42,803 bases of DNA, from assembly GCA_025360805.1 (NCBI GenBank), contig JANYBK010000092.1, positions 1 to 42,803 on the forward strand. The letters are read 5' to 3'. The translations under genes and the position numbers were made by a program. Source of the stretch: Methanomicrobiales archaeon (GTDB lineage: Archaea; Halobacteriota; Methanomicrobia; Methanomicrobiales; Methanospirillaceae). Under the pieces are notes generated by a model, which had not been told where the DNA came from, ran no database searches, and saw only the letters and a list, made by a program, of their open reading frames with translations. Positions 32,092 through 42,360 of the stretch are shown piece after piece (the first letter of the stretch is position 1; every line of letters begins with the position of its first letter).

Positions 32092-32739
32092 ATGGGCAAC
32101 ACGGAAGAACAGAAGAATAATGAGAAGAGCGAACCTCCGCTTCTCACCGATCCTCCCTTTTATCTTCCGGAGTTTGAGAAATCGTACCGTTATATCATCG
32201 ATGAGTACGAAGTTGCACCGAAAGATATTGCAATCTTCATGCCCTGTGCTGTGCGAAAACCATATAGCGCGAGCCCGAGCCACCAGCTGATCCGTATGAT
32301 TATCTCTCAGGTGCTGGAAACATCGCAATACCATATCGTTATCTTCGGAACGTGCGGAATTGTGCCTGCCGAACTTGAAACCATGTACCCGTATGCCCAT
32401 TACAAGTACATGCTCGGGAAATGCAACGACGACAAGGTTAAGGACGATTTTCTTCGCATCGAGACAGAGCGTGTTGCCGGCTATCTCGATAAGACCCGGA
32501 AGGTATACAAATACCGCATCGCGTACTCCATCGGGCTTTTCCGAGAAGCCCTCATCAGGGGTTCGGAACAGGCAGGAGTTCCCTTTGACTTAATCCTCCC
32601 CACCCGGGACATCATCAACAAGGTGATCGAGGAAGGCGACTGCACGTTTCAGGAAGGAAGCCTCTCGATGGAGGAATACTTAGGTGAGTTTTGCGACGCG
32701 TTGATCCGGTTCCGGAATGAGCGGCTGGGGAAGATATAG
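32092..32739 (+). CDS. DUF5591 / ArcS-catalytic-domain-like stand-alone protein
   Basis: MPCAVRKPYSASPSHQLIRMIISQ resembles the archaeosine synthase PCxxxKPYxxSxxH motif; FGTCGIVPAELETMYPYAHYKY. Confidence 0.7.
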   Translation: MGNTEEQKNNEKSEPPLLTDPPFYLPEFEKSYRYIIDEYEVAPKDIAIFMPCAVRKPYSASPSHQLIRMIISQVLETSQYHIVIFGTCGIVPAELETMYPYAHYKYMLGKCNDDKVKDDFLRIETERVAGYLDKTRKVYKYRIAYSIGLFREALIRGSEQAGVPFDLILPTRDIINKVIEEGDCTFQEGSLSMEEYLGEFCDALIRFRNERLGKI

Positions 32740-32780: not shown

Positions 32781-33758
32781 TCAGGCACGCCTGGCAGTCT
32801 GTTCGAGCACGCGAAGTACCGCTTCCCCAAACTCCCGCGTTCCTGCCGAACCGCCAAGGTCCCGGGTCTTAATCCCCTGTGCAAGTACAGCCCGTATCGC
32901 TGATTCAATCTGATCCTCACCCTCTGCGTCCCCGACATGAGTCAAGAGCATCCCTGCACTCCGCAGAGCTGCGATGGGATTTGCGAGGTTCTTTCCTGCA
33001 ATATCCGGAGCACTGCCATGAACCGGTTCAAAAAGAGCATACCGCTCACCGATATTTGCGCTCGGCACCAGTCCCAATCCCCCGACAAGGTACGAGGCAA
33101 CATCCGAGAGAATATCGCCAAAGATGTTGGTTGTGACAACCACATCATACGATGCAGGATGCTGGAGCACATCGAGCGAGAGGGCATCGATGAATTTGTC
33201 ATTATACGATACCCCGGAAGCCTTTGCCTCGGCAATGCAGATATCACGGAAGAGCACATCGGACTTGAGCACGTTGGCCTTGTGGCCGATGGTCAGCAGT
33301 TTACGCCGCTGCCGGGCAAGTTTGATTGCCATGCGGACAATCCGTTCTGCACCCGTCCGGGTCACCACCCGCAATGTTGTAGCACGGTCCGGGCTGCTCT
33401 CTTCGATACCGGAATAGAGCCCCTCGGTGTTCTCCCGCACGATCATGATGTCAAACCCGCCGTCTTTTACCGGACGGAGGTTGGCATACAAATCGAGCGC
33501 CTTTCTAATCCTTAACACCACACTCTGGTAGTCCTTCATGGGCGGGGTGGTGATCGCCCCAAACAGGATGGCATCCGCATCTTTCATCTCGCGGATCTCC
33601 TTGTCGGCACACGGGCAGCCAGTCCGCTCCCACATGCCATACCCCACATCTACGGTAAAGAGATCATACTCGGGATGGAGCAGTTCGAGCGCACTGCGGG
33701 CAACCGGGATCACTTCGTGACCGATTCCATCCCCTTCCACAATAGCAATCCGCGTCAT
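32781..33758 (-). CDS. aksF: isocitrate/isopropylmalate dehydrogenase family; probable homoisocitrate dehydrogenase
   Basis: MTRIAIVEGDGIGHEVIP, NTEGLYSGIEE, DVVVTTNIFGDILSDVASYLVGGLGLVPSANIG; last gene of the aks operon. Confidence 0.88.
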   Translation of the reverse strand: MTRIAIVEGDGIGHEVIPVARSALELLHPEYDLFTVDVGYGMWERTGCPCADKEIREMKDADAILFGAITTPPMKDYQSVVLRIRKALDLYANLRPVKDGGFDIMIVRENTEGLYSGIEESSPDRATTLRVVTRTGAERIVRMAIKLARQRRKLLTIGHKANVLKSDVLFRDICIAEAKASGVSYNDKFIDALSLDVLQHPASYDVVVTTNIFGDILSDVASYLVGGLGLVPSANIGERYALFEPVHGSAPDIAGKNLANPIAALRSAGMLLTHVGDAEGEDQIESAIRAVLAQGIKTRDLGGSAGTREFGEAVLRVLEQTARRA

Positions 33759-34555
33759 CTCCTCCTCCACTGCGCCACCATCTCTTCCACCGCATGGGCG
33801 ATGCGGGACGGACTTGCACCCCAGTGCACTATTGCCCCGAACTTACCCTTATACATGCCAATCCCCTCGCGTTCTGAACGGCAGCAGCGGGCTATAAACG
33901 GCTCTTGCTGCACGGACTCTAAGGGGCAGATATTCTCAAGCGAAAAATCCTTGCCATAACATTCAGTGTAAAACTGCGAACCCGTCATGCAACCGGCCAC
34001 TGTTTCGCCGCCGTGCATCAAATCAGCATCGAGCGTTTTTGCATACCCCGCAGCCCGGCAGGGATAGACATCTGCCTTTACCTGTGTGATGTCCCGGGTA
34101 TGATGGCAGAACATGACTGCAAGTTCCCCAAAAAGTCCTGCTGCCGAAAGATCCCGCAGACAGGCAGACAGGCTCGGGCGGGGTGGCGTCACATCGTAGA
34201 CATGAATCTTAAGAAATCCCGATAGATCGGGATCGAGCACAAAGGTCATGTGCTCGTCAAGCCCGGAGAAGATGGTGCACCGGTATCCCGTATCCAGCGC
34301 CAGCTCGACAAGCCATGCACGGTCATTGATCTGCACCTTATCCGGGTAGCGGTAGGTTTCTTTTGCGGTGGCGATTACTTTCGATGCCACGATTTTTCGC
34401 ATCATACCGCTTCCGGCAGGATCAGGAGTAATCGCTAACAATTCATACCCCGTACCGGTATCCCTTACAAGGTAGCGACTCAGGAACCAGACCTTATCCC
34501 CGCAGGGTTTTGTTGTGGCATACCCCACCTGCTTGCACTGTTCAGGAAAGATCAC
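33755..34555 (-). CDS. unknown Cys-rich protein embedded in the aks operon (266 aa)
   Basis: C-terminal half with FCHH, YPCR, GCMTGSQFYTECYGKDFSLENICPLE, ARCCRSE, GAIVHWGASP; 4-nt overlaps with both neighbours. Confidence 0.8.
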   Translation of the reverse strand: MIFPEQCKQVGYATTKPCGDKVWFLSRYLVRDTGTGYELLAITPDPAGSGMMRKIVASKVIATAKETYRYPDKVQINDRAWLVELALDTGYRCTIFSGLDEHMTFVLDPDLSGFLKIHVYDVTPPRPSLSACLRDLSAAGLFGELAVMFCHHTRDITQVKADVYPCRAAGYAKTLDADLMHGGETVAGCMTGSQFYTECYGKDFSLENICPLESVQQEPFIARCCRSEREGIGMYKGKFGAIVHWGASPSRIAHAVEEMVAQWRRR

Positions 34556-35022
34556 CGCTGGTTCCTCCAGTACTCCACCAGTCCCCCGGCAGAGAGGATT
34601 GCCTGCATTCGCGGGGAGAGCGGGTGGATAGAATGTCTCTTTCCCTCCGCTTCAACCCAACCCTCGGAGAGATCAAATGTAACAAGGCATCCTTCCGTGC
34701 AGGTGAGGTCACATTCGATGAGCGGGAGACCCACATTGATCGCATTCCGGAAAAAGATCCGGGCAAACGAGGGTGCAACTACTGCGACAACTCCTGCCTC
34801 ACGGATCGCAACTGCTGCCTGTTCCCGCGATGACCCGCAGCCAAAATTCTTTCCCGCCACGATCACCGACCCTTCAAGAAGTGGGGCGAGCGACGGATCA
34901 AGATCCTCAAACACATGCTCAACCCAGATGCTGTGGTCCTTTGTCCGCAGGTATCGTCCTGCGATTACAAGGTCTGTATCGATATCCGGCCCCACGCAGA
35001 CAGCCGGGCCTTTTGATGTCAT
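34552..35022 (-). CDS. aksE: homoaconitase / 3-isopropylmalate dehydratase small subunit
   Basis: IDTDLVIAGRYLRTKD, GKNFGCGSSREQA, ARIFFRNAINVGLPLIE. Confidence 0.9.
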   Translation of the reverse strand: MTSKGPAVCVGPDIDTDLVIAGRYLRTKDHSIWVEHVFEDLDPSLAPLLEGSVIVAGKNFGCGSSREQAAVAIREAGVVAVVAPSFARIFFRNAINVGLPLIECDLTCTEGCLVTFDLSEGWVEAEGKRHSIHPLSPRMQAILSAGGLVEYWRNQR

Positions 35023-36233
35023 CAGTTCACCTCCGGTTCGGTGATCTCGCCTTCAAGGGCACTCGCTGCTGCCGTAGCAACCGAGCCAAGGTAGATCGCA
35101 GCACCGACACCCATCCGGTTCTTAAAATTCCGGTTCGCGGTCGAGAGGCATACCTCCCCTTCACCCAGCACCCCCATATGCGCACCGAGGCAGGGACCGC
35201 AGCCGGGGGTTCCGATTGTGCAACCAGCATCCACCAGATCGCTGAGTACACCGGTCCGGATCGCTTCTGCCATCACTGCTTTTGAGGCAGGGACGACGAT
35301 TGTCCGCACCGCCACACTCTTTCCTTTGACAATCCGGGCGAACCGTGCAAGATCGGAATACCGCCCGTTCGTACAGGTACCGACAAAGACCTGGTCAAGA
35401 GGAAGACCGGCAATTTCCCGCACGGGTTTGACGGTGTCAACCCGGTGAGGCACGGCAACCAGTGGCACAATCTCCGACAGGTCAATTGTTAGTTCCTGTG
35501 CATAGCTGCATGGCTCCGGTACCTGCGGTTGTACCATCTGCCCGGCCCGGGCGAGATACTGCACAGTCACGTCATCGGCATAGAACAATCCCGCCTTTGC
35601 TCCTGTTTCTACCGAAAGGTTGCAAAGCACGAGCCGGTCATCCATAGAGAGTCCTAAAACCCCATCGCCGATAAACTCCAGTGCCTTATACGTAGCGCCG
35701 TCCATGCCAAGCCTGCTGACATACGTGAGTGCAAGGTCTTTAGCTTCTGCTGCACCGAAGAACTTTCCTGACAGGTGTATTCCAATGGTCTCAGGAACGC
35801 GGAACCAGGTCTCTCCGGTCAGCCAGATTCCCGCCATATCCGTTGCCCCTACACCGGTTGAAAATGCACCAAAAGCCCCAAGCGTGCAGCTGTGCGAGTC
35901 GGCGCCTACCACAACTTCACCGGGAAGCACCACACCCTCGCTCATGATCTGGTGGCAGATCCCACATCCCACATCGGAGAAGTGCATGAATGAACCACGG
36001 GCAAATTCACGCAGTTCATGCTGGAGCGTTGCTGTCGTGCTGTTGTTTGCCGGCACGATATGGTCAAAGAGCATCGAGAGCCGGGTCGTATCCGTGAGCC
36101 GCTCACTGCCTATCCGTTTCCAAGCCTCGAGCGTGAGGACACCAGTACCATCGTGGACATAGGCCCGGTCCACCTTCCGGTCTACATACTCACCGGCATT
36201 CCCTCCAAGAATCCGTTCTGATAATGTCGCCAT
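35022..36233 (-). CDS. aksD: homoaconitase / 3-isopropylmalate dehydratase large subunit
   Basis: GADSHSCTLGAFGAFSTGVGATDMA, FVGTCTNGRYSDL, GTPGCGPCLGAHMG cluster ligands; start overlaps the aksA stop as ATGA. Confidence 0.9.
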   Translation of the reverse strand: MATLSERILGGNAGEYVDRKVDRAYVHDGTGVLTLEAWKRIGSERLTDTTRLSMLFDHIVPANNSTTATLQHELREFARGSFMHFSDVGCGICHQIMSEGVVLPGEVVVGADSHSCTLGAFGAFSTGVGATDMAGIWLTGETWFRVPETIGIHLSGKFFGAAEAKDLALTYVSRLGMDGATYKALEFIGDGVLGLSMDDRLVLCNLSVETGAKAGLFYADDVTVQYLARAGQMVQPQVPEPCSYAQELTIDLSEIVPLVAVPHRVDTVKPVREIAGLPLDQVFVGTCTNGRYSDLARFARIVKGKSVAVRTIVVPASKAVMAEAIRTGVLSDLVDAGCTIGTPGCGPCLGAHMGVLGEGEVCLSTANRNFKNRMGVGAAIYLGSVATAAASALEGEITEPEVN

Positions 36234-37360
36234 CAGGCATTCTCCCGTTGTGCTTTTGTGATCAGTTTTCTTAAGATTTCCGGAGTGATGTTGCATTTGT
36301 GTTCCGAGTGATCCTTAACGAGGTCAAGGACACGGCAGACCTGCTTGTCCGTACATTCGCAACCGAGCCCGGCCATGACGTGCTCAAGTGCTTTTTTACC
36401 CGTATGTTTCCCAAGAATGAAATGCCGTTCTCCGCCTACCATACCAGGAGGGAAATATTCATAGCTTGAGGGGTCTTCAAGGATTGCAGCGATGTGTATG
36501 CCGCTCTCGTGGGAGAATGCAAGTTCTCCGGTTACCGGTTTATTCCTGGGAAGCGTTATTCCGGAGAATTTTTCTACCATATGCGAGAGTTCAGTGAGGT
36601 GGGATAGGTCATACCTGTCAATGTTTCCTTTCATCCGCAGTGCGACAAGCAACTCTTCTAATGAGGCATTACCCGCCCGTTCCCCAATCCCATTGACTGT
36701 AGTGTGGAGCTGGAAGGCACCTGCCTGGGCAGCGGTGATCGTGTTTGCCACAGCACAGCCCATGTCATTGTGACAGTGAGCGCAGAATGGCACATCCACC
36801 GATGAGACGAGTTCGGTCATGATGCTTTGCATCTCTGTAGGGATCAGGCATCCAACCGTATCGGCAAAACTGAGCAGTACGGCTCCATGCTCAGCTGCTC
36901 CGCGATAGACTTCTTTTAAGAAGGGAAGATCGGTCCGGGACGCATCCTCAGCAGCAAACCGCACTGCCACGCCATGATCCCGGGCGTAATCGATCATTTT
37001 TAAGGAATCTGCAAGAACCTCATGCCGTGATTTTTTGAACTTGAGCCGAACATGCAGCTCGGAAGTTGGGATGAAGATGCTCACCATCTCCACATCGCAG
37101 TCAATCGCCGTCTGGATATCGCCTTCCCGGGCCCGGGAAAAACCGCAGATACGGGCGTCAAGACCGAGGTTTGCAATCGTCTTTACACAGTGTGCCTCAT
37201 TCTGTGAGACGGCAGGAAATCCTGCTTCGATAACTTCAATCCCAATCTCGTCTAACTTGGTTGCAATCTTTACCTTTTCCTCGCAGGAGAACGATACCCC
37301 GGGCGTCTGCTCCCCGTCCCGCAACGTCACATCACAGATCTCAATATTTAACGATTTCAT
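36233..37360 (-). CDS. aksA: homocitrate synthase family protein
   Basis: IEICDVTLRDGEQTPGVSFSCEEKVKIATKLDEIGIEVIEAGFP, HCHNDMGCAVANTITAAQAGAFQLHTTVNGIGERAGNASLEE, SHESGIHIAA. Confidence 0.9.
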   Translation of the reverse strand: MKSLNIEICDVTLRDGEQTPGVSFSCEEKVKIATKLDEIGIEVIEAGFPAVSQNEAHCVKTIANLGLDARICGFSRAREGDIQTAIDCDVEMVSIFIPTSELHVRLKFKKSRHEVLADSLKMIDYARDHGVAVRFAAEDASRTDLPFLKEVYRGAAEHGAVLLSFADTVGCLIPTEMQSIMTELVSSVDVPFCAHCHNDMGCAVANTITAAQAGAFQLHTTVNGIGERAGNASLEELLVALRMKGNIDRYDLSHLTELSHMVEKFSGITLPRNKPVTGELAFSHESGIHIAAILEDPSSYEYFPPGMVGGERHFILGKHTGKKALEHVMAGLGCECTDKQVCRVLDLVKDHSEHKCNITPEILRKLITKAQRENA

Positions 37361-38612
37361 GGCTGCTTCCCTCCGGACAGGTACCATTTACAACAAGCGT
37401 GCGGGGCGTGTCCGTCACCACGAGCTCGTTTTTCAGCGTCTCTTCATCATCGGCACGGCATATCACCGGGTCTGCCCACATGAGGTAGGGAACCGGATCA
37501 TAGGAAAACTGTTTGCCGGTCATCGCTGTACAGTCGTTGTTCATCACGATGCAAAGCAGCGGAAGCCGTTTCTCGTACACATCAATCAGGGCATTCAGGC
37601 CGGAATGGAGCATTGCATAGTCACCGATAAGGGCAACTTTTGTGCTCCGGGCGGCAACCGCAATACTCGAACCCATGCCGTAACTTGCCACTCCCAGCTC
37701 GTACGGGGGGGTCATTCCCAGTATTGAACAGCCTGCATCGCAGATCATGTTCATCCGTCGTGCTTTGAGAATATTCATCATCGGTTTGAACGGGCAGTTT
37801 TTACAGAACGTCCGGTAATACCCACGGCTCTGCACCACCTCAGGGGATTGCTGGGGAGCCGGAGGTTGCAGACCACGGTGATCGCGGACAAAGGTCCGGC
37901 CAACCTCGTGCACTTCCTTTAGCCGTGCGGCCTGTGCCGGCAGGGGGTGTACAGTAACAATACGGGTGTTTCCTGGTGCCGCACCAACACCGGCTGGCTC
38001 TCCCTTCCACTGGTTTAATGCAGAAGCGTTCGACCAGTCAAACATGGTCCGGTACAATTCCTCGGCAGCCGTTATCCGCCCGTTCATGGTCCACGAACGG
38101 TCAGAGAGCCGCCCTTTCCCGTTTTTCCGGGGAACTGGAGAACAGCTCACCTCCGCATCGAATATGTTAGGGGTCAGCCTGAGCATCGCAACCCTTGAGA
38201 ACTGCTCGGATGCTTCGAGACCTGCCTCGACACCGGCGTAACAGGAAGAGGCATCGGGTTCTATCACGGGAAGTTCTGCGAGCTCTCCGTAATACCGGGA
38301 GTCCTGTGCGGTCTGCGAACCCAGTGCTTCGGGATCATCCCCGGCCACGAGAAGCACACCCCCGATGAGACCCTGGGCAGCTGCCTGCAGCAGAGGATCG
38401 GCGCACGCGTTCACACCGACATTCTTGATAATTACTGCCGCTCGTCGCCCTTCAAGCGAGTCACCCAACGCATATTCAAGAGCAGTTTTTTCATTGATCA
38501 CCATCTCTGCACGGGTTTTTGCGCCCAGTTCAGTTACGGGAAATCCCGGTACTGTATACTGGCGGTCGGTGCATGCGAGTAGTGCTTCTGTAATTACATC
38601 AATGCCTTTCAT
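37341..38612 (-). CDS. TPP-dependent enzyme, IorA-like, without C-terminal ferredoxin domain
   Basis: FCKNCPFKPMMNIL, CDAGCSILGMTPPYELG, TPP motif GDYAMLHSGLNALIDVYEKRLPLLCIVMNND, TAMTGKQ. Confidence 0.87.
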   Translation of the reverse strand: MKGIDVITEALLACTDRQYTVPGFPVTELGAKTRAEMVINEKTALEYALGDSLEGRRAAVIIKNVGVNACADPLLQAAAQGLIGGVLLVAGDDPEALGSQTAQDSRYYGELAELPVIEPDASSCYAGVEAGLEASEQFSRVAMLRLTPNIFDAEVSCSPVPRKNGKGRLSDRSWTMNGRITAAEELYRTMFDWSNASALNQWKGEPAGVGAAPGNTRIVTVHPLPAQAARLKEVHEVGRTFVRDHRGLQPPAPQQSPEVVQSRGYYRTFCKNCPFKPMMNILKARRMNMICDAGCSILGMTPPYELGVASYGMGSSIAVAARSTKVALIGDYAMLHSGLNALIDVYEKRLPLLCIVMNNDCTAMTGKQFSYDPVPYLMWADPVICRADDEETLKNELVVTDTPRTLVVNGTCPEGSSHEIVKY

Positions 38613-39578
38613 CTAGTCCCTCCCCGGCACCAGATCGCAGCCGGCACAATTCGTACACATGGTGAGCGCCAATTTTGGATCAAGCCCCGCCCGGGCAAGT
38701 TCGCGTGTATGGATATCAAAGATCTTTTTTAACCGTTCCGCAGACGGGCGGGGAGTTCCGATGAGTTCGGCAACCGGGTTGAGCGGGCGCAGCACCGGAA
38801 TGATCCCGTGAGAAGTCAACCGTTTGATGCAGGTATCCATCTCCCCGTCAGTCTCACCAAGACCGATGATCACGTTTGAAAAAACCCTTCCTTTCCCAAA
38901 GAGTTCCACCGATCGGTCGAGCACCCGTAAGAGCTGCTCGTAATTCAGCCCCGGACACTGTTTTGCAAAAATTGTCGGGGTTGCCGCTTCGATGTTGAAC
39001 TTCACTTCTGCCACACCAAGGTTCTTGAGCCGGTCTGGTGTCTGGTCGGTCGGATATATGGATACTCCGATGGGGAGATTGTAAACCCGCAGGTGCTTAA
39101 CCACCTCAAGCACATAGGACTCCTCCTCTTCGATTGTTTCGAGCACTCCGCTCGTAATGGAGATTGTGGTAATCCGGTGCCTGACGGATTCGATCATCCC
39201 TTTGATCTCCTCAATCGACTTTCGTTTGCCACCGAGTGCCGGCACCGGGCAGTACCGGCAATGGAAGATGCAGCTGCCAGTTACCGTGATGAACGCCTGG
39301 TCCGGACAGTGGAATCCCGGTTCAAGGAGTCTTCCTGATATGAGTGACCCCTCAAAATAGAGGTCAGCAACCCCGTTGCCCCGGTGGGCGATCTCAACTG
39401 CGCTAAGAGGGTTTAGGGCAAGTTTAACACGGTGACTGCCCATCGAAAAGAAGACAGCCCCGCTCCCGCCGGCTCCCGGGCCTGCGGTTGAACGGGCAAT
39501 GTAACGTTCAGCTGGTTCTCCGGTGATCCGGGCTGAACCTGCGGAAAGGAGTTTTGCTTTTAAATCGGTCCACTGCAT
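38613..39578 (-). CDS. radical SAM protein with extra C-terminal CxxCxxC
   Basis: GSCIFHCRYCPVP (CX3CX2C) and C-terminal MCTNCAGCDLVPGRD. Confidence 0.9.
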   Translation of the reverse strand: MQWTDLKAKLLSAGSARITGEPAERYIARSTAGPGAGGSGAVFFSMGSHRVKLALNPLSAVEIAHRGNGVADLYFEGSLISGRLLEPGFHCPDQAFITVTGSCIFHCRYCPVPALGGKRKSIEEIKGMIESVRHRITTISITSGVLETIEEEESYVLEVVKHLRVYNLPIGVSIYPTDQTPDRLKNLGVAEVKFNIEAATPTIFAKQCPGLNYEQLLRVLDRSVELFGKGRVFSNVIIGLGETDGEMDTCIKRLTSHGIIPVLRPLNPVAELIGTPRPSAERLKKIFDIHTRELARAGLDPKLALTMCTNCAGCDLVPGRD

Positions 39579-40456
39579 AGTTCGAGCGCCTCCTCGTAAC
39601 TGATGAAGAACGGGATTGCCGCCACTGCCCCGGTGATGCCACGGCCGTTCATGATGATCTTCAAATTCTTGTCCTTGAGTCGTTCATGGAGCCCGGGTTC
39701 AACTTCCCCGCGTTTTACCTGTCGCCCGTATGCGAGCAGTTCTTCTGATGGGGAAAAACCAGTGTAAACAGCCATGCCGGTCTTTTTAGAAAGAGTGTAT
39801 TTTTTTAAGAGCGTGTGGAACCGTTCGGTAAGCCCGGCAGGATCCGTTGTGGCAAACTCTGCAACCAGACCAACGCAGTTCTTGGTCCGGTACGCCACCG
39901 GAAAGAGCTGGACTATCGTGTGCGAAAGATATACCGAATGTTCATCTTCAACGGCTTTTGCAATATTATGAACAAGCGTCCATGTTGCCCCTTCTTCCGG
40001 CGTATCAGTATCATCCACCCCGATGAGCACCCGCTGCATCCGGGGCATCCAGATCGTGGCACCTGCAACTTTTCCTCCACCCGCAGGATCGCTACGGCTC
40101 CGCAAAACCCCGCGTGCATCCGAGCGGCAGGCTGCAGCACCCACACCACCCCCGCCCATGCCGATATAAGTAACAGAAATCTCGGAATCATCAACAGTAC
40201 ATGCAGAAATACCGGCCGGAAACCGTGAGCCTTCGAGAGCAAGATCCACCGATTGCGGTTTTAGGAGATACCTCATGGTTGAGCCAACACAGCGGACATC
40301 CTCCACTACCGGGCTCTGTATATAGTGGTGTTTCGACCACATCGCACCACCAACACAATCAAAAAACTCGATCAGTTCCACCCGGTTGCCGGTCTCATCT
40401 GCTACTGCCACGATCTGTGGGTAGTGGATTACATACGGTTCAGACAAACTTGCCAT
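39560..40456 (-). CDS. methanogenesis marker protein 11-like (TiaS-like kinase-type domain)
   Basis: VLIGVDDTDTPEEGATWTLVHNIAKAVEDE (DDTDT motif), SYEEALELC C-terminus; gene context. Confidence 0.78.
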   Translation of the reverse strand: MASLSEPYVIHYPQIVAVADETGNRVELIEFFDCVGGAMWSKHHYIQSPVVEDVRCVGSTMRYLLKPQSVDLALEGSRFPAGISACTVDDSEISVTYIGMGGGGVGAAACRSDARGVLRSRSDPAGGGKVAGATIWMPRMQRVLIGVDDTDTPEEGATWTLVHNIAKAVEDEHSVYLSHTIVQLFPVAYRTKNCVGLVAEFATTDPAGLTERFHTLLKKYTLSKKTGMAVYTGFSPSEELLAYGRQVKRGEVEPGLHERLKDKNLKIIMNGRGITGAVAAIPFFISYEEALELCSGPI

Positions 40457-41475: not shown

Positions 41476-42360
41476 TTAGAGAATTTTGTGGAGCTCGATC
41501 TTAAAGGGACCGAGCGTACCGCCAAAGTTTCCGGCCGTGATGAACTTCACGCCCGGCACCAGTGATGCGGCTTTGACACCTGCTGCCATTGCTGCTGCAA
41601 CGGACTTCTCATCAATACCGTCAATGACAATCTCATAAACCCCTTTGATCCCGGCAGGGACCTTTGAGTCGGGGACTTTTTCCCGGAGTGTCGGGCAGTA
41701 CTTCTCATTGGTTGAAGCGGGCATGAACTTGTATTTCAGGCTGCCAACTTTTGAGCCGCTCGCAACGATACCGCCGGGGAAACTGGTGATAGTGCCCGGA
41801 ACTTTGGCGATTGCATCCACTGCTGCCTGTGCACCCATGAGGGCGGCCATCTGGTTCTCTGCCATCACAAAGAAGTTGCCACCTGCAACACCCTTGACAA
41901 TGCCGAACTCTTCCTCGCCGATATATTCTCCTTCCATGATCGGGATGACCCAGCATTTCCTGCCGCCAACTTCTTTCTGGTACTCGTAACCGTCTCCAAA
42001 GAAGTGGAGTTTTACCTGGATCTTTTCTTCCGAGTTGGTAATACCGTTAAAGACCGCAGTCGTTGGTGCAGTGAGTACGCACTCAGCGAGGCGCTCGACA
42101 ACCTGCTCCTTGATCTTCTTCTTACCTGCACAGATCAGGATTGAGACACCCGGGCGGCCGTCCGGGGTCTGGGAACCGTCAAGTTCCTGCTCGATCCCTG
42201 CTTCGCACGGGCAGCCGATGGCAGATGTCGCAAAGCCGGTTGCTTCGGTTGCTGCTTTCCTTGCCCATTCTGTGGTGACTGCTGTGATGATCACCCGGCA
42301 GACCCATGTCGGGAATGCCTCAGCAAATTCGTTGTCAATAGTAACTCCGTTGATTTCCAT
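41476..42360 (-). CDS. ftr: formylmethanofuran:tetrahydromethanopterin N-formyltransferase
   Basis: MEINGVTIDNEFAEAFPTWVCRVIITAVTTEWARKAATEATGFATSAIGCPCEAGIE...FPGGIVASGSKVGSLKYKF; GGAGGT upstream. Confidence 0.97.
   Translation of the reverse strand: MEINGVTIDNEFAEAFPTWVCRVIITAVTTEWARKAATEATGFATSAIGCPCEAGIEQELDGSQTPDGRPGVSILICAGKKKIKEQVVERLAECVLTAPTTAVFNGITNSEEKIQVKLHFFGDGYEYQKEVGGRKCWVIPIMEGEYIGEEEFGIVKGVAGGNFFVMAENQMAALMGAQAAVDAIAKVPGTITSFPGGIVASGSKVGSLKYKFMPASTNEKYCPTLREKVPDSKVPAGIKGVYEIVIDGIDEKSVAAAMAAGVKAASLVPGVKFITAGNFGGTLGPFKIELHKIL

Follow-up and report, generated by a model that had tools for sequence, protein, structure and literature searches.

The window analysed here is a 42,803-nucleotide stretch of a Methanomicrobiales archaeon (contig JANYBK010000092.1 of assembly GCA_025360805.1), and at positions 32781-40456 of its minus strand it carries an operon of eight genes that we propose is a nearly complete locus for the biosynthesis of coenzyme B (CoB), a reading to which we give a probability of roughly 60%. 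Methyl-coenzyme M reductase (MCR) receives its electrons from CoB, which is for this reason essential for biological methane formation. In 5′ to 3′ order the genes encode Mmp11, a radical S-adenosylmethionine (SAM) protein, a short IorA-like thiamine pyrophosphate enzyme (hereafter the TPP enzyme), AksA, AksD, AksE, a cysteine-rich DUF7714 protein (gene 7) and AksF; window coordinates are used throughout, and all eight genes are read from the minus strand.

In the proposed pathway, AksA, AksD/AksE and AksF would convert 2-oxoglutarate to 2-oxosuberate in three elongation cycles, as judged from their homology to established enzymes, and the TPP enzyme would decarboxylate 2-oxosuberate non-oxidatively to 7-oxoheptanoate. 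DUF7714 and the radical SAM protein would together replace the aldehyde with a thiol to give 7-mercaptoheptanoate, and Mmp11 would use ATP to join this product to threonine, or would phosphorylate the threonine. The operon appears to combine two modules, one for elongation and decarboxylation (aksADEF and the TPP gene) and one for the later steps (Mmp11, radical SAM and DUF7714). The operon is a good candidate for the missing steps of CoB synthesis. Past the Aks core we infer the functions, among which the decarboxylase is the strongest, sulfur installation comes second and the role of Mmp11 is the weakest.

The eight-gene operon and its conservation

All eight open reading frames (ORFs) were recovered within 32781-40456, and both their coordinates and the reading of their junctions bear out an earlier, sequence-only reading in which the genes are packed with 0-nucleotide gaps or short overlaps; across the operon, neighbours either abut or overlap by 1 to about 20 nucleotides. 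The Mmp11 and radical SAM genes overlap by 19 nucleotides, the radical SAM and TPP genes meet without a gap at TAGATG, and the TPP gene overlaps aksA by about 20 nucleotides when the better aksA start at 37360 is taken. The AksA/AksD and AksD/AksE junctions both read TGATG, aksE overlaps the DUF7714 gene (GTG start) by 4 nucleotides, and the DUF7714/AksF junction is ATGA, provided that the ATG at 33758 is the start. The ORFs as listed for AksD and AksA are too long at their 5′ ends. The earlier description of several ATGA junctions therefore holds loosely. The family assignments made in that reading agree with the TIGRFAM, Pfam and NCBIfam profile scores given below, which in addition identify gene 7 as DUF7714.

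The same gene order is kept in 25 of 25 Methanoregulaceae/Methanomicrobiales loci, a count that covers only related loci without interruption by a contig end, with protein identity as low as 62-65%. The genome is Methanoregula-like, its nearest named relatives, judged by gene 7, being metagenome-assembled genomes of Methanoregula (87-91% identity), and the full set of eight genes is also present in most other sampled Methanomicrobiales families. Because the genes are colinear in all these loci and recur in most other families of the order, their packing is not due to chance. Outside this order, the Methanocellales-type loci L076-L078 hold Mmp11, the TPP gene, aksA (on the opposite strand), aksD, aksE, aksF and DUF7714 in one region, and in L077 and L078 the radical SAM gene adjoins Mmp11; here and below, names of orders other than Methanomicrobiales are inferred labels, with gene content and relatives among their grounds. 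The association of these genes is real and ancient.

Co-occurrence and co-loss

To a sample of 119 genomes of the phylum, 50 of which are DUF7714-positive, we applied a phylogenetic profile. The DUF7714-positive genomes encode the TPP enzyme (49/50), the radical SAM protein (50/50), Mmp11 (50/50) and McrA (49/50), the sole one without McrA (G000) being incomplete, and among the other 69 the TPP enzyme is found in 1, a full-length radical SAM protein in 4, Mmp11 in 9 and McrA in about 23. The sequence-only reading had staked its proposal on the co-occurrence of these families with aks genes elsewhere, and it survived this comparison.

Because much of the profile is the signature of one clade, losses within the clade weigh more. 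Two Mcr-positive genomes of 1.6-1.7 Mb (G136 and G138), probably Methanomicrobium mobile, lack AksD, AksF, the TPP enzyme, the radical SAM protein and true Mmp11, and three Mcr-positive Methanocorpusculum-like genomes (G154, G155 and G156) show an equal co-absence of AksD/F, the TPP enzyme, the full-length radical SAM protein and true Mmp11. CoB is among the listed growth requirements of M. mobile (PMC10658910). The Methanocellales archaeon Met12, whose circular genome has lost the Mcr, Aks and Com genes (PMC11176372), is G006 in our sample, and all four non-Aks genes are absent from it. The broader statement that auxotrophs lose all four genes was rejected, as DUF7714 is retained.

These losses bear on the idea that the radical SAM protein and Mmp11 serve the post-translational modification of MCR and not CoB synthesis. 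Both proteins are methanogen-specific in most lineages, and other radical SAM marker proteins, Mmp10 for example, modify McrA; yet the M. mobile-like and Methanocorpusculum-like genomes encode McrA of full length and score while both proteins are absent along with aks, which makes this explanation very improbable.

The Aks core

Homology allows the four Aks genes to be linked to the formation of 2-oxosuberate, because AksA has no regulatory domain and AksE carries the loop YLRT where its LeuD paralogue has FLTI. AksA (36233..37387, likely start 37360), of the homocitrate-synthase family, scores 443 bits against TIGR02090 and contains only the domains PF00682 (HMGL) and PF22617 (HCS_D2). At 384 residues and without the LeuA regulatory domain, it is the sole copy of this kind among the four homologues of the genome, the three paralogues having 504-510 residues. 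AksD (35022..36296, likely start 36233), the homoaconitase large subunit, scores 485 bits against TIGR02086 and 468 bits against TIGR01343. The small subunit, AksE (34552..35022), scores 157 bits against TIGR02087, with NF040625 (HacB2) as its top match at 158 bits. Among 127 AksE-like matches above 120 bits, 115 have YLRT, as does the window protein, and 4 have YLRS; the genome's own LeuD paralogue has FLTI at this position. From work on the Methanocaldococcus jannaschii enzyme (MJ1271), we take the YLRT loop to be a homoaconitase signature. AksF (32781..33770, ATG at 33758) belongs to the homoisocitrate dehydrogenase family (TIGR02088, 382 bits; NF040626 AksF2, 317 bits).

The four proteins thus fall into the same families as the Aks enzymes of M. 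jannaschii and share the AksE loop with them; what differs is that here they are encoded in an operon with four further genes, and that they lie under several NCBIfam equivalog cut-offs (homoaconitase and homoisocitrate dehydrogenase).

A candidate 2-oxosuberate decarboxylase

The TPP enzyme (37341..38612; 423 residues) matches PF02775, and its match to TIGR03336 (IorA) reaches 148 bits against a cut-off of 651, in two separate stretches. It shares the TPP-binding motif, the activating glutamate and a cysteine pattern with IorA, but has no C-terminal ferredoxin domain, no adjoining IorB and a shortened middle domain, and a canonical IorA-like protein of 591 residues is encoded elsewhere in the same genome. 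On the basis of this domain content, we rejected the possibility that it is a true indolepyruvate ferredoxin oxidoreductase. The activating glutamate (E41, in NEK) and G330, D331 and N359 of the metal/TPP motif GDx(27)N are invariant in 17 sequences. Solved relatives of its profile were oxalyl-CoA decarboxylases only, as weak matches; besides IorA, the sulfopyruvate and oxalyl-CoA decarboxylases are the known enzymes closest to it.

Gene linkage points in the same direction. In Methanosarcinales- and Methanotrichales-type genomes the TPP gene is the immediate neighbour of Mmp11 and shares its strand (22/22, for example loci L094-L097), and the McrA-less genome G116 has a contiguous aksA-aksD-aksE-aksF-TPP cluster (locus L104, G116:C71). 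G151 carries an aksA-D-E-F-TPP cluster separate from a second one of Mmp11, radical SAM and DUF7714, and in G118 the aksADEF-TPP module has been lost as a unit. An apparent retention of AksA in G118 was discounted, the remaining aksA-like gene being a member of a nif locus, beside nifH and a nitrogenase component gene. The genome with L104 is 98% complete and has no McrA, DUF7714 or true Mmp11.

The simplest reading of the TPP enzyme would be decarboxylation of the Aks product, and we predict with good confidence that it is a 2-oxosuberate decarboxylase. Co-occurrence, linkage and motifs support this earlier proposal well; its activity on 2-oxosuberate is predicted from sequence.

DUF7714, the radical SAM protein and the thiol

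Gene 7 (33755..34555) had been described as an anonymous cysteine-rich protein, a description that we replace. It matches PF24830 (DUF7714) with 292.8 bits against a gathering score of 25, and over nearly its full length it matches the XcbA profile NF052538 with 49.1 bits; a Methanosarcinales-type orthologue reaches the maximum of 91 bits, and the cut-off is 150. Its cysteines C166, C189, C210, C224 and C225 are invariant. A tblastn search with the protein found one plasmid-encoded protein, from Nocardioides sp. JS614 (25% identity over 90%), whose operon also encodes phosphosulfolactate synthase, two lyase-family proteins and a pyridoxal phosphate enzyme, and is the bacterial coenzyme M (CoM) operon. 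The two proteins have all five cysteines (5/5) in common, together with PPxP, PC-R and WG motifs. One report assigns XcbA to a late stage of bacterial CoM synthesis (PMC11507031). DUF7714 differs from bacterial XcbA in being archaeal and aks-linked, in scoring 49-91 bits and thus under the cut-off, and in R79 and H244, which are not kept in the Nocardioides protein. A search with NF052538 for a second archaeal paralogue of the XcbA family returned the same DUF7714 genes only. The AlphaFold2 (AF2) model is confident (pLDDT 90.7, pTM 0.84); compared by fold with the Protein Data Bank it gave no match at E <= 0.001, and a sequence search for solved relatives found none.

DUF7714 stands beside aksE and/or aksF in Methanomicrobiales and in Methanocellales-, Methanosarcinales- and Methanotrichales-type loci, the exceptions being the Methanocorpusculum-like and M. 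mobile-like groups. Its kinship with XcbA raises the possibility that DUF7714 is mainly a CoM enzyme, or a thiol-former for both CoM and CoB, its link to aks reflecting the conversion of an aldehyde to a thiol that the two cofactors have in common. The shared cysteines fit this, as do the retention of DUF7714 in probable CoB auxotrophs that have Mcr and its disappearance from Met12, which lost both the CoM and the CoB pathways. However, aks genes are its neighbours in nearly all genomes, and the primary CoM synthase of Methanosarcina acetivorans, whose genome also has DUF7714, is Mmp16 (PMC12068725). In addition, three M. mobile-like copies carry R79 to S and H244 to G changes, and the Methanocorpusculum-like copies a G246 to A change, at positions that are otherwise invariant in DUF7714; the first two are the residues absent from the XcbA relative. 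We regard a main or shared role in CoM synthesis as rather unlikely.

The radical SAM protein (38613..39578) matches PF04055 (56.6 bits), with the CxxxCxxC cysteines C103, C107 and C110 invariant, and has a conserved N-terminal domain and a second conserved motif, CxxCxGCD, at its C-terminus that resembles an auxiliary-cluster site. Among solved proteins, its profile comes closest to lipoyl synthase, two biotin synthases and RimO, each of which inserts sulfur. It shares the radical SAM domain with LipA/LipS2 and BioB, and its extra conserved cysteines could bind an auxiliary cluster; it differs from them in its N-terminal domain and C-terminal motif, and in curated scores far under the cut-offs (LipS2, 63.5 against 270; BioB, 27.5 against 225). 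With these relatives, the operon could feed another C7-C8 product, for example the pimelate of biotin synthesis or the octanoate of lipoate synthesis, and the aksADEF-TPP module in Mcr-negative G116 would be in keeping with this. Yet the full set tracks methanogens and is missing in Met12, the score of the radical SAM protein falls far short of the BioB and LipA cut-offs, and the operon showed no bio or lip genes; we consider a biotin or lipoate function the least probable of the explanations discussed here.

Returning to CoB, Methanocorpusculum-like genomes encode a solo version of the radical SAM N-terminal domain (about 80-106 residues) directly before DUF7714 (L193:9780-10046, L195:8390-8707, L200:8914-9147, L201:9949-10215 and L202:10182-10430). 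Because the solo domain immediately precedes DUF7714, this arrangement suggests that the radical SAM protein and DUF7714 cooperate. From these sequence relationships, one or both of them probably install the thiol, with the labour divided between them in either way. The earlier proposal that the radical SAM and/or cysteine-rich protein installs sulfur gains from the LipA/BioB relatives and the XcbA homology, and is set back by the persistence of DUF7714 in genomes without aks.

Mmp11

Mmp11 (39560..40456) consists of an N-terminal domain and a TiaS-type TCKD kinase domain. It scores 326.1 bits against TIGR03280 (cut-off 255.8) and matches PF22641 (TiaS_TCKD), and its DDTDT motif (D148, D149, T150, D151 and T152) is invariant. 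The AF2 model (pLDDT 88.9) matches TiaS structures in Foldseek (3AMT, E 4.7e-6) and shows their kinase fold in its C-terminal half, so that both sequence and fold confirm the DDTDT kinase-like domain described earlier. TiaS, the tRNA-Ile2 agmatidine synthetase, uses ATP to activate a carbonyl that an amine then attacks, and the making of CoB requires both amide linkage to threonine and the addition of a phosphate. Mmp11 and TiaS share the TCKD kinase fold and the motif DDTD, but Mmp11 has a different N-terminal domain and none of the other TiaS domains, and the window protein does not match the TiaS equivalog, only the domain-level Pfam profile. We tentatively propose Mmp11 as a candidate for ATP-dependent threonine ligation or phosphorylation, a role that we hold to be somewhat less probable than its opposite.

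Mmp11 also occurs in other settings. In the Archaeoglobi-like loci L090-L093, some of them from McrA-less genomes, it overlaps a gene for an MSMEG_0568-type radical SAM protein. In many Methanomicrobiales (L010, L013, L015, L082, L086-L089 and others), though not in the window, a tandem paralogue lies upstream of Mmp11; it is about 30% identical and scores 195-210 bits against TIGR03280 in several cases and 37 bits, versus 600, against TiaS. The M. mobile-like genomes keep this paralogue alone, adjoining DUF7714.

Neighbouring genes

Upstream of the operon lies the gene for Ftr (formylmethanofuran:tetrahydromethanopterin formyltransferase; 41476-42360, minus strand), with about 1 kb and a small plus-strand ORF between them, and at its 3′ end the operon faces a convergent gene for a DUF5591 protein (32092-32739, plus strand). 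In the Methanocellales-type loci, a protein of about 210-220 residues is encoded between the TPP gene and aksA (L076:4930-5598 and L078:14216-14848); the L076 copy has no match in Pfam or NCBIfam.

Discussion

Several observations weigh against the proposal that this operon makes CoB almost in full. Methanogens without aks genes keep DUF7714 under purifying selection, with all five cysteines and with pairwise dN/dS well below 1, and this retention suggests that DUF7714 has a further role, which might be CoM synthesis or the use of a scavenged precursor. True Mmp11 also turns up where McrA is missing, in Archaeoglobi-like genomes, and has a radical SAM protein of another family (the MSMEG_0568 type) as its neighbour there. 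If DUF7714 carries out the thiol step, the radical SAM protein is left without an obvious task of its own, and the identification of G136 and G138 with M. mobile is a probable one. DUF7714 is absent from M. jannaschii, our control and a CoB-making lineage, and both DUF7714 and the TPP enzyme are absent from ANME-1-like and MCR-bearing Archaeoglobi genomes that need CoB; other lineages must therefore use other enzymes, and the proposed route cannot be the universal one. Finally, a 2025 study that still calls the CoB biosynthetic pathway unknown puts forward Mmp16 and/or L-ASST, proteins of COG1900, as candidates for it (PMC12068725).

That study opens a different explanation, in which the TPP enzyme alone has a place in CoB synthesis itself, the thiol is made by COG1900 proteins (Mmp16, L-ASST), and Mmp11, the radical SAM protein and DUF7714 serve another process of methanogens. 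Besides the study itself, the other radical SAM partner of Mmp11 in Mcr-negative Archaeoglobi, the DUF7714 genes left in place after aks loss and the two separate clusters of G151 speak for it. Against it, the radical SAM protein and true Mmp11 are missing along with aks from the Mcr-positive genomes of the M. mobile-like and Methanocorpusculum-like groups, and four orders that diverge deeply have DUF7714 next to aksE and aksF or between them. We judge this explanation unlikely, and favour the operon as a nearly complete CoB locus. The central claim of the sequence-only reading, that the non-Aks genes supply the late steps of CoB synthesis, thereby stands in part: co-occurrence and the hints from family and fold support it, and the aks-less genomes with DUF7714, the MCR-less Archaeoglobi with Mmp11 and the CoB lineages without the set count against it.

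A bolder extension, which we think doubtful, is that DUF7714 and bacterial XcbA form one cysteine-rich, possibly new-fold family of aldehyde-to-thiol enzymes acting in both CoB and CoM synthesis; in class II methanogens, with the radical SAM protein as a dedicated partner that handles sulfur and Mmp11 as ligase or kinase, the operon would then cover most or all steps from 2-oxosuberate to CoB. The proposal names four concrete genes, and M. acetivorans, which carries at least DUF7714 and Mmp11 according to our controls, is genetically tractable, making each missing step of CoB synthesis testable. If true, a thiol-forming family common to bacterial CoM and archaeal CoB synthesis would link two pathways that have been held separate, and its members would be targets for methane inhibitors.

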